Below, one piece after another: positions 2,947 to 27,085 of a stretch of 39,466 nt of DNA (positions within the stretch are counted from its first letter, which is position 1; every line of letters starts with the position of its first letter). The DNA is taken from positions 1-39,466 of IMG/VR virus record IMGVR_UViG_3300033048_000001; one strand, written 5' to 3'. The stretch comes from a virus. Under the pieces are notes generated by a model. That model was not told the DNA's origin, made no database searches, and was given only the letters and a program-made list of their open reading frames with translations. The translations under genes were made by a program, and so were the position numbers.

Positions 2947-3372
2947 ATGTACATTACAAAGTGTTTACAAATCCATGCCGACAACTTTCAGCCGTCCATA
3001 GAGGACATTCTGGAAGCTGAGGCACTAGGTGTTGAACCAAAGGTAATTCCTGATGAGAACACTGTGGCAATGCTTAGCGATAACGCTGTGTTGGCAATCG
3101 GTGGCAATCAGGGAGACCGAGTGTGGTTCCTTACCTCTAAGTACGTCCCACTGTTTACCTTGAAGGAGCGCTTAGAGTTTCGTAAGTTAATAATCGAATA
3201 TCGGGATATAATGCTGAACCAGTACGAGTCCATTTGGAACTTCGTATGGGTAGGCAATAAGTCGCACATTCGTTTCCTAAAGACAATCGGAGCGGTATTC
3301 CACAACGAGTACACTCTCGATGGTCAGTTCCAACTATTCACAATCTCAAGGAGGCAACGTGAAGAACTGTAA
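2947..3372 (+). CDS. 13: gp13, internal/assembly protein
   Basis: The product is 141 aa (T7 gp13 is 138 aa). In T7 it is needed for assembly of infectious particles around the internal core. The C-terminal half is strongly T7-like (FVWVGNKSHIRFLKTIGAVF, residues about 97-116). The N-terminus is diverged. The last residues are unusual: T7 ends in FTITKGG, whereas this protein reads FTISRRQREEL because an endonuclease gene has been inserted directly downstream and the old stop is lost. GAGGGG at about 2931-2936 is a usable Shine-Dalgarno site. The last 14 bases overlap the next gene. Confidence 0.9.
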   Translation: MYITKCLQIHADNFQPSIEDILEAEALGVEPKVIPDENTVAMLSDNAVLAIGGNQGDRVWFLTSKYVPLFTLKERLEFRKLIIEYRDIMLNQYESIWNFVWVGNKSHIRFLKTIGAVFHNEYTLDGQFQLFTISRRQREEL

Positions 3373-3748
3373 GAAATGCGGAGAGATGAAAGCTGTCTCC
3401 GAGTTCTATAAGGACAAGAAGAGTAAGGATGGCCTACGAAGTCACTGTAAGCCATGTCACTACACGTATTACAAGAAGGACTACTCAAAGGCGCGAGAGA
3501 TGAACCTTAAGCGTCTGTACGGAATCACTCTGGAAGAATACGAAGCGATGCTCCTTAAGCAAGACGGAGTGTGTGCTATCTGCGGTCTTACCGAGAGAGT
3601 TGAGGGACGGGCGTTAGCGGTTGACCATTGCCACGCCACTGGCGCTGTTCGTGGTCTCCTTTGCTCTGCCTGTAACATCGCTCTTGGGAAGCTCGAGGAC
3701 GACACCGAGCGTCTTCGGAAGGCAATAACATACCTAGGAGGGAAATGA
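3359..3748 (+). CDS. Endonuclease VII-like HNH/zinc homing nuclease
   Basis: The product is 129 aa if translated from the GTG at 3359, which has AAGGAGG at 3349-3355. An ATG at 3320 would lie deep inside gene 13 without such a site. Residues 4-7 and about 31-34 carry CxxC pairs (CKKC, CKPC), a small zinc finger. The C-terminal half has the recombination-endonuclease-VII signature: YGITLEEYEAML, CAICG, VDHCH, GLLCSACNIALG. Such enzymes in T7-like phages act as intron-less homing endonucleases that nick DNA. The gene is absent between 13 and 14 in T7. It ends 2 bases before the gene 14 start, and its own 3' end supplies the gene 14 ribosome-binding site. Its substrate is unknown. Confidence 0.85.
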   Translation: MKNCKKCGEMKAVSEFYKDKKSKDGLRSHCKPCHYTYYKKDYSKAREMNLKRLYGITLEEYEAMLLKQDGVCAICGLTERVEGRALAVDHCHATGAVRGLLCSACNIALGKLEDDTERLRKAITYLGGK

Positions 3749-3750
3749 TT

Positions 3751-4344
3751 ATGTGTTGGATGGCAGCAATTCCTATCGCAATGATGGGTGCCCAAGCTCT
3801 AAGTAGCCAGAACAGTGCTGACAAGGCGCGAGTGGCACAGACCGAAGCTGGACGCAGACAGGCAATGGAGATGGTCAAAGAGATGAATATCCAAAATGCC
3901 AACGCCTCGCTGGAACAACGGGACGCCCTTGAAGCTGCATCCTCTGAGTTGACTTCACGTAACATGCAGAAGGTACAGGCTATGGGAACAATCCGTGCAG
4001 CTATCGGCGAGAGTGTGCTAGAAGGCGAATCCATGAAGCGCATCAAGCGTATCGAAGAGGGCAACTACATTCGGGAGGCAAATAGTGTCACCGAGAATTA
4101 CCGCCGAGACTACGCGAGTATCTTTGCGCAACAGTTGGGACGCACTCAGTCAACAGCAAGTCAAGTCGATGCAATGTACAAGAGCGAGGCCAAGGGCAAG
4201 TCTGGTCTGATGCGTGTATTAGACCCTCTGTCCATTATGGGTCAGGAAGCTGCAAGTCAATATGCGGCTGGTGGATTTGACAAGAAAGGTGGAAACCAAG
4301 CAGCACCTATCAGTGCCGCCAAAGGAACCAAGACCGGGAGGTAA
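3751..4344 (+). CDS. 14: Internal virion protein B (gp14)
   Basis: The product is 197 aa (T7 gp14 is 196 aa). It is the innermost core protein, ejected on infection to form a pore in the outer membrane. MCWMAAIPIA matches the T7 start MCWAAAIPIA. I therefore prefer ATG 3751, which is 8 bases after GGAGGG at 3737-3742, over ATG 3745, which is only 2 bases away. T7-like stretches include SIRAAIGES-like and VTENYRRDYASIFAQQLG, and the identical C-terminus AAKGTKTGR. It is followed by gene 15 with a 2-base gap. Confidence 0.95.
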   Translation: MCWMAAIPIAMMGAQALSSQNSADKARVAQTEAGRRQAMEMVKEMNIQNANASLEQRDALEAASSELTSRNMQKVQAMGTIRAAIGESVLEGESMKRIKRIEEGNYIREANSVTENYRRDYASIFAQQLGRTQSTASQVDAMYKSEAKGKSGLMRVLDPLSIMGQEAASQYAAGGFDKKGGNQAAPISAAKGTKTGR

Positions 4345-23263: not shown

Positions 23264-23680
23264 ATGAGAAACATCGAACGGTTCAACGCAAAGACTGAAC
23301 CTTGCGGTGACTGTCTACGTTGGACTGGTCGAATCCAGCCTAACGGTTACGGACAGTTTCGCCTCGAAGGTAAAACACAATGCGCACATCGAGCAGCTTA
23401 CAAGCTGTTTATCGGTGAATTGGACAATAAAGATACAGTCCTCCACTCGTGCGATAACAGGTGGTGTGTGAACCCTGAGCATTTGACCAAGGGAACGCAG
23501 GCCGATAACCTGAAAGACATGGCGATAAAGGGTAGGCACCACGCCATTAAGATTCCGAACGATGCCATTGAGGGCATCCGTAAAGACCCTCGCCCTTCCG
23601 CTGTGATAGCGGCTGAGTGGGGAGTCCACCGCACAACCATCCAAAAGATTAAGCGAAACATCAACAGGAGATTCGTATGA
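23264..23680 (+). CDS. HNH homing endonuclease between 1.2 and 1.3
   Basis: The product is 138 aa. Residues about 14-45 carry RWTGRIQPNGYGQFRLEGK and AHRAAYKLF. Residues about 57-75 hold the HNH_3-type core (VLHSCDNRWCVNPEHLTKG). The C-terminal region ADNLKDMAIKGR and AAEWGVHRTTIQKIKR is a helix-turn-helix DNA-binding end. Such free-standing nucleases resemble T7 gp3.8-type genes. It is expressed from its own promoter and its stop overlaps the ligase start (ATGA), so ligase translation is coupled to it. The target site is unknown. T7 has no gene here. Confidence 0.87.
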   Translation: MRNIERFNAKTEPCGDCLRWTGRIQPNGYGQFRLEGKTQCAHRAAYKLFIGELDNKDTVLHSCDNRWCVNPEHLTKGTQADNLKDMAIKGRHHAIKIPNDAIEGIRKDPRPSAVIAAEWGVHRTTIQKIKRNINRRFV

Positions 23681-25925: not shown

Positions 25926-26624
25926 ATGGCTGGTTTCAAGAAGAAAATCTACACCTCTGGTCTTGGCACTGCTGAGCCTTATGCTTACCTGAGTAAGCCG
26001 GATTACGGCAACGAAGAGCGTGGCTTCGGCAACCCTCGTGGTATCTATAAGGTAGACCTGACTCTTTCCAATAAAGACCCGCGCTGTCAGGCGATGGTCG
26101 ATGAAATCGTGAAGACTCACGAAGAGGCTTATGCTGCTGCCGTGGAAGAGTTCGAAGCTAACCCGCCGCAGGTACAGCGTGGTAAGAAACCACTGAAACC
26201 TTACGAGGGCGACATGCCGTTCTTCGATAACGGTGATGGCACGACTACCTTCAAGTTCAAATGCTATGCGTCTTTCCAAGATAAGAAGACCAAAGAGACC
26301 AAGCACATCAATCTGGTCGTGGTCGATAGCAAAGGTAAGAAGATTCAGGAAGTGCCGATTATCGCTGGCGGCTCCAAGCTGAAAGTGAAATACTCTCTGG
26401 TGCCGTACAAGTGGAACACCGCTGTGGGCGCAAGCGTCAAGCTGCAACTGGAGTCCGTGATGCTGGTCGAACTGGCTACCTTCGGTGGTGGCGGTGAAGA
26501 TGAGTGGGCCGATGAAGCCGAAGATGGCGGTTATACTGCGAGTGAATCCCGTCAGTCCCGCGATGAGCAGGAGTGGCAGGAAGACGAGCACGAAGAAACC
26601 CCGGATGACGACGAGGACTTCTAA
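25926..26624 (+). CDS. 2.5: Single-stranded DNA-binding protein (gp2.5)
   Basis: The product is 232 aa, equal to T7 gp2.5. An OB-fold protein with a long acidic C-tail ending DDDEDF; the tail contacts gp5 and gp4. Start MAGFKKKIYTSGLGTAEPYAY is T7-like. AAAGGAG at 25912-25918. Stop overlaps the gene 3 start (TAATG). Confidence 0.96.
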   Translation: MAGFKKKIYTSGLGTAEPYAYLSKPDYGNEERGFGNPRGIYKVDLTLSNKDPRCQAMVDEIVKTHEEAYAAAVEEFEANPPQVQRGKKPLKPYEGDMPFFDNGDGTTTFKFKCYASFQDKKTKETKHINLVVVDSKGKKIQEVPIIAGGSKLKVKYSLVPYKWNTAVGASVKLQLESVMLVELATFGGGGEDEWADEAEDGGYTASESRQSRDEQEWQEDEHEETPDDDEDF

Positions 26625-27085
26625 TGGCTGGCGCATACGCTGCGCGAGGTGTACGCAAGGTCGGAGCATTCCGTTCCGGCCTAGAGGATAAAGTCTCAAA
26701 GCAGCTTGAGAGTAAGGGAATTAAGTTCGACTATGAACTTTGGCGTATCCCTTACGTCATCCCTGCGAGTGACCACTTGTACACTCCAGACTTCCTGCTA
26801 CCTAATGGCATCTTCATTGAGACCAAAGGGTTGTGGGATTCCGATGACCGCAAGAAACACCTTTTGATTCGTGAGCAACACCCTGAACTGGATATTCGCT
26901 TGGTCTTCTCAAGCAGCCGCTCAAAGCTCTACAAAGGTAGCCCAACAAGCTACGCCGAGTGGTGTGAGAAGCATGGCATTCTGTTTGCTGACAAGCTAAT
27001 TCCGGTGGAGTGGCTCAAAGAACCCAAGAAGGAGGTTCCGTTCGATAAATTTAAGACTAAGAAAGGAGTAAAGAAAAATGGCTAA
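26624..27085 (+). CDS. 3: Endonuclease I, Holliday-junction resolvase (gp3)
   Basis: The product is 153 aa (T7 gp3 is 149). It breaks down host DNA to nucleotides and resolves branched DNA before packaging. Catalytic Glu21, Asp56, Glu66 and Lys68 are all present (GLED, YTPDF, FIETKG), one position further than in T7. The C-terminus is basic (KFKTKKGVKKN). It overlaps gene 3.5 by 8 bases, and the 3.5 ribosome-binding site AAAGGAG lies within it. Confidence 0.96.
   Translation: MAGAYAARGVRKVGAFRSGLEDKVSKQLESKGIKFDYELWRIPYVIPASDHLYTPDFLLPNGIFIETKGLWDSDDRKKHLLIREQHPELDIRLVFSSSRSKLYKGSPTSYAEWCEKHGILFADKLIPVEWLKEPKKEVPFDKFKTKKGVKKNG

Follow-up and report, generated by a model that had tools for sequence, protein, structure and literature searches.

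An optional, probably homing-type endonuclease gene at the gene 13/14 junction of T7-group phages

How can a free-standing nuclease gene enter an essential late operon and leave its expression undisturbed? The junction between genes 13 and 14 of T7-group phages offers a compact test of such an entry, since T3/T7 relatives are easily grown and crossed. We analysed this junction in a T3-like (Teetrevirus) phage known from a virus record of 39,466 nucleotides (IMGVR_UViG_3300033048_000001), hereafter the window. In the following, junctions with the nuclease are called occupied and junctions lacking it empty. The features considered are:

2947–3372, + strand: gene 13, encoding gp13 (PF11090, E 1.3e-44)
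3280–3354, + strand: 3' end of gene 13, apparently imported with the nuclease (fixed occupied/empty differences at 3303–3348, 10/10)
3348–3354, + strand: AAGGAGG within gp13 codons, predicted ribosome-binding site of the nuclease (4-base spacer)
3355–3369, + strand: QREEL codons, a gp13 extension missing in empty relatives, which end in ...FTISRR
3359–3748, + strand: gene 13.5, encoding a 129-amino-acid nuclease of the Endonuclease VII type from a GTG start
3359–3571, + strand: N-terminal half of the nuclease with CxxC...CxxC, probably for DNA recognition (only 55% amino acid identity to phiYeO3-12)
3572–3745, + strand: catalytic beta-beta-alpha-metal half (93% amino acid identity to phiYeO3-12)
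3736–3742, + strand: AGGAGGG in the last nuclease codons, predicted new ribosome-binding site of gene 14 (9-base spacer counted from AGGAGG)
3751–4344, + strand: gene 14, encoding gp14 (PF24072, E 9.5e-43), conserved start, ATG 2 bases 3' of the nuclease stop
26624–27085, + strand: gene 3, encoding endonuclease I, which is the Holliday-junction resolvase of this phage (PF05367, E 4.9e-84)

The nuclease gene overlaps gene 13 by 14 bases and occurs once in a search of its own record. Its product matches the Pfam profile PF02945, Endonuclease_7 (E 1.6e-29), as well as PHROG 2633 (E 3.4e-46). Together with the absence of the gene from close relatives these matches bear out the first-pass annotation, which had described an Endonuclease VII-like gene inserted between genes 13 and 14. 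Given this absence, the arrangement of the junction has not come about by chance. The gene belongs to a known type: Gene 13.5 is already part of the deposited annotation of Yersinia phage phiYeO3-12 (NP_072072, endonuclease VII), where it lies in the same slot, is of the same family (72% amino acid identity) and shows the same handover of binding sites, but has a TTG start and a gp13 tail ending in RRNP. Among the matches listed, the nearest named records over the region were Yersinia phage AP5 and Klebsiella phage mtp15, each 97.9% identical. The protein of AP5 itself (ORF36 / gene 13.5, two records) is 98.5% identical to that of the window, and counterparts in 10 further phage records are at least 93% identical and, where annotated, lie in the same slot. 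The AP5 paper gives the product as a hypothetical protein of unknown function (PMC4283147). The open-licence literature searched yielded no functional work on the gene 13.5 product of a T7-group phage.

The anatomy of the junction, the optional presence of the gene, the takeover of gene 13's binding site and the substitute site for gene 14 can be read directly from the sequence. In empty T3-like relatives gene 13 ends in SRR-stop, with AGGAGG 5 bases 5' of the gene 14 ATG (10/10 read); this motif is the predicted binding site of gene 14 and corresponds to that at 3348–3354, which in the window would serve the GTG start of the nuclease, as had been proposed. The motif had been placed one base too high, at 3349–3355. 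Gene 14 in turn would use the site in the last nuclease codons, again as proposed: The gene ends CTA GGA GGG AAA TGA, followed by TT and the ATG of gene 14. The predicted pairing energies with the 16S tail are kept, with -11.5 kcal/mol for gene 14 of T3, -11.4 kcal/mol for the nuclease of the window (GTG 3359) and -10.7 kcal/mol for its gene 14. VAC1, phiYeO3-12 and ESh7 have lost a further in-frame ATG that stands upstream in the window, at 3745, which makes ATG 3751 the likelier start of gene 14. The unit of gene 13, nuclease and gene 14 is thus as seamless as first described, yet this is unremarkable in itself, since in the same phage the end of gene 14 also carries the binding site of gene 15.

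A start of the nuclease at ATG 3320 is unlikely. This codon has no binding site (only -2.5 kcal/mol), lies in an ordinary region of gp13 codons that is also found in empty phages, and in phiYeO3-12 does not share the reading frame of the nuclease. In the deposited annotations the nuclease of VAC1 begins at the equivalent ATG and that of Poynor at an internal codon.

Occupied junctions of several genera carry GGAGG at the 3' end of the nuclease in 16 of 20 cases and AAGAGGAG in the remaining 4 of 20 (the gene 14 start of Ro45lw being uncertain), and the start codon of the nuclease varies between GTG, TTG and ATG. Base-by-base comparison of occupied junctions covered 8 of the 15 full-coverage records. 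We rejected GGAGG at the 3' end of the gene as a portable trait of the nuclease family: It was found in 5/76 homologs on viral contigs and in 13/350 control frames (P 0.34), which ran from stop to stop and included non-genes. A looser set of motifs gave raw counts of 13/76 and 30/350. The count omitted locus L048, which lies on the same contig as locus L002 (see below), and one of 77 loci had no countable row.

The tail of gp13 required a different comparison than the one first made. The KGG end of T7 had been taken as the ancestral state; as the empty T3-like phages end in SRR, T3 is the right reference and only QREEL was added. The tail SRRQREEL itself was read correctly, and gene-less close relatives do end differently (10/10 read). 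The change is not a general effect of occupancy: Occupants end in RRQREEL, RRNP, GGNHE, an unchanged RR or RRR, and others.

That the insertion simply altered the tail, as had been supposed, does not agree with the comparison of 9 occupied junctions (window included) with 10 empty T3-like phages. All fixed differences within the stretch compared (10/10) fell into the final 52 bases of gene 13, and there were none in the first 330 bases of gene 14. Identity between occupied and empty phages drops to 0.67–0.82 over the last 75 bases of gene 13, where the window's type and the empty type are each at least 0.95 identical within their group. The last ~50–75 bases of gene 13 therefore seem to have arrived along with the nuclease, which argues against the insertion as the simple cause of the tail change. 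Imported gene 13 ends, a possible footprint of flank co-conversion, are seen in the T3-like set and in the two cross-genus islands described below, but not in kpssk3, where the sequence on either side agrees with that of an empty relative right up to the junction.

Locus L002 (3001–4218, contig IMGVR_UViG_3300038674_000011) was omitted from this comparison because its junction is duplicated. Here, an empty-type gene 13 with 23 bases of gene 14 is fused, at 5 bases common to both sides (ATTCC), to the tail of an occupied-type gene 13 followed by nuclease and gene 14. On this metagenomic contig the duplication might stem from homing that failed, or the contig might be chimeric.

At least 15 of 116 matching records span the query in full, nuclease included; among the 60 listed, the remaining 45 span 81% of it. 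Occupied and empty alleles coexist within one genus. The edges of what was transferred are best seen between genera, where islands of high identity provide natural borders for a homing event. Between phiYeO3-12 (Teetrevirus) and PP74 (Berlinvirus) the gene 13 end is identical at 71/74 and the nuclease at 382/389 positions, versus 191/343 for the rest of gene 13 and 318/579 for gene 14 after its first 15 bases. The nuclease and about 70 bp of gene 13 thus form an island of 96–98% identity. Genome-wide, 42 of 3207 windows of 100 bp reached at least 93% identity between the two phages, 40 of them in the island and 2 elsewhere. A second island, shared by RN5i1 (Berlinvirus) and Kp_Pokalde_002 (Przondovirus), begins ~250 bases into gene 13 and stops ~25 bases into gene 14. 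The right edges of both islands are similar and lie within the conserved start of gene 14. Of 38 records matching the RN5i1 block, 18 contain 98% or more of its length, 17 contain 69–72% in two pieces, and 3 contain the gene 13 part alone, such that this gene 13 end is not tied to the nuclease. The islands favour a laterally mobile gene 13.5 and, as judged from these alignments, lateral transfer between genera with short flanks has occurred more than once. One clade for the nucleases of the 13/14 slot was not recovered in a tree with 5 changes and weak deep branches.

The residues and the modelled fold of the enzyme fit the F-CphI homing family. D89, H90, H92, R98 and N106 as well as C72, C75, C102 and C105 are invariant in 48 sequences; the roles of the catalytic and zinc residues in Endo VII-motif enzymes have been described (PMC6083498). 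The predicted structure (mean pLDDT 91, pTM 0.65) best matched Hpy99I (E 9.6e-6), followed by T4 EndoVII, with modest TM-scores of 0.40–0.44. Like the window nuclease, F-CphI of cyanophage S-PM2, a DHHRN homing endonuclease, has its Endo VII motif at the C-terminus, and the two share their catalytic residues (PMC6083498). F-CphI works together with a psbA intron and its cleavage is proven (PMC6083498), whereas the window nuclease is a candidate for such an activity. The gene appears to be a mosaic: Compared with phiYeO3-12, 143/225 bases of the first part versus 156/165 of the catalytic part are identical (Fisher P 5e-14).

The seg genes of phage T4 encode nucleases of another catalytic family. 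The mob genes of T4 encode an HNH nuclease domain (PMC2988022). These free-standing endonucleases are optional like gene 13.5, and for several of them overlap with upstream genes has already been described (PMC2988022). T4 segG embeds the promoters of gene 32 (PMC2988022), where gene 13.5 embeds a ribosome-binding site instead. In the T7-like Hafnia phage Ca a 397-bp insert of similar size lies between lysin and terminase, overlaps both neighbours and is missing from part of the population (PMC8861465). It occupies another slot and is annotated as HNH, unlike the EndoVII type of the window, and a search of the window nuclease against this stretch gave no match.

Gene 13.5 also decays in place, as far as deposited sequences tell. 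The nucleases of PP74 and locus L021 are frameshifted in their N-terminal part, although sequencing errors could account for such frameshifts in deposited genomes. In Klebsiella phage SH-Kp 152410 (L172:1151–1336) an in-frame loss of 201 bp removed the N-terminal half. The start codon and the 3' AGGAGG were kept, leaving at the 13/14 junction a short ORF with the catalytic half alone, which is unannotated in the deposited record. The 17 two-piece records mentioned above resemble this phage by coverage, the base-by-base comparison being that of SH-Kp 152410 alone. Decayed copies retain the binding site of gene 14, which raises the question whether a mobile gene that has died can be held at its site by the ribosome-binding site embedded in it.

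We consider it probable that gene 13.5, an optional free-standing gene, encodes a homing-type endonuclease of the Endo VII-motif family (DHHRN, F-CphI-like). It resides between genes 13 and 14 in T7-group phages, where it has crossed from one genus to another on more than one occasion. When a carrier and an empty phage infect the same cell, the enzyme would cut the uninterrupted 13/14 junction of the latter, most likely in the region formed by the final ~50 bases of gene 13 and the start of gene 14. The gene plus part of gene 13 would then be copied from the carrier during repair, and the changed junction would protect the carrier from cutting. Against this reading weigh the free recombination of T7-group phages, the conserved gene 14 start as a natural crossover point, the kpssk3 junction without imported tract, and the failure of the slot's nucleases to form one clade in the tree. 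The main rival, which we regard as unlikely, is a passive cargo gene that needs no target cleavage and travels with ordinary homologous recombination where the gene boundaries of T7-group phages are conserved. In agreement with it, both islands end in the conserved gene 14 start, and 3/38 records have the RN5i1 gene 13 part but no nuclease. Against it speaks that the catalytic residues are conserved and that just 2 of the 42 highly identical windows of phiYeO3-12 and PP74 lie elsewhere, i.e. exchange between these phages is concentrated on the nuclease.

Fold and catalytic set are shared with T4 EndoVII, such that the product might instead be a resolvase of Holliday junctions or other branched DNA that aids replication, recombination or packaging. 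This appears very improbable for an optional gene in a phage that has its own endonuclease I (26624–27085). Podoviruses with a protein in the endonuclease clade, that of F-CphI, all carry endonuclease I, and its presence marks podoviruses of this clade and not those with resolvases (PMC6083498). The motif is moreover C-terminal (residues 49–126 of 129 in the Pfam match), unlike in T4 EndoVII-like resolvases as described in the same source (PMC6083498), and instead of the full length residues 59–115 alone align, to residues 10–71 of T4 EndoVII. Least probable of all, in our view, is an enzyme that attacks host DNA or co-infecting phages and is kept for exclusion, being mobile only incidentally. 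The closest solved structure, Hpy99I, is indeed a restriction enzyme, but no methylase adjoins the gene, whose neighbours are genes 13 and 14, and decayed copies are tolerated. This reading also overlaps with homing, for which cutting the rival is the first step too.

For a homing-type gene 13.5, we tentatively entertain a modular organisation, though we doubt it somewhat: The N-terminal recognition half and the last 50–75 bases of gene 13 may form one module that combines target specificity with an immune junction to match; the catalytic half would be common to the lineages. As the binding site of gene 14 now lies in the last codons of the nuclease, a dead copy could then not simply be discarded, and decay would remove the recognition half and keep the start and the 3' end.

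Other nuclease genes occupy further slots. In phage ECA2 (L133:1065–1490) an EndoVII-type nuclease lies between genes 18.5 and 19 and ends in AGGAGG just 5' of the next gene. Its border, the 15-mer AGGAGGAACCCTTGA, equals the gene 13/13.5 border of phiYeO3-12; by raw counts this 15-mer occurs in 5/133 loci examined and in 35 stretches of the viral collection. On Klebsiella-phage-like contigs EndoVII-type nucleases are found upstream, apparently before gene 12 (L022:151–546, L020:151–546 and L010:157–540), and L022 has one in both this apparent slot and the 13/14 slot. The window itself contains an HNH-type endonuclease gene (PF13392) at 23264–23680, flanked by gene 1.2 and the DNA ligase gene. 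It overlaps the ligase start by 4 bases, has a phage-promoter-like site just 5' of it, and is present in 19 phage records.
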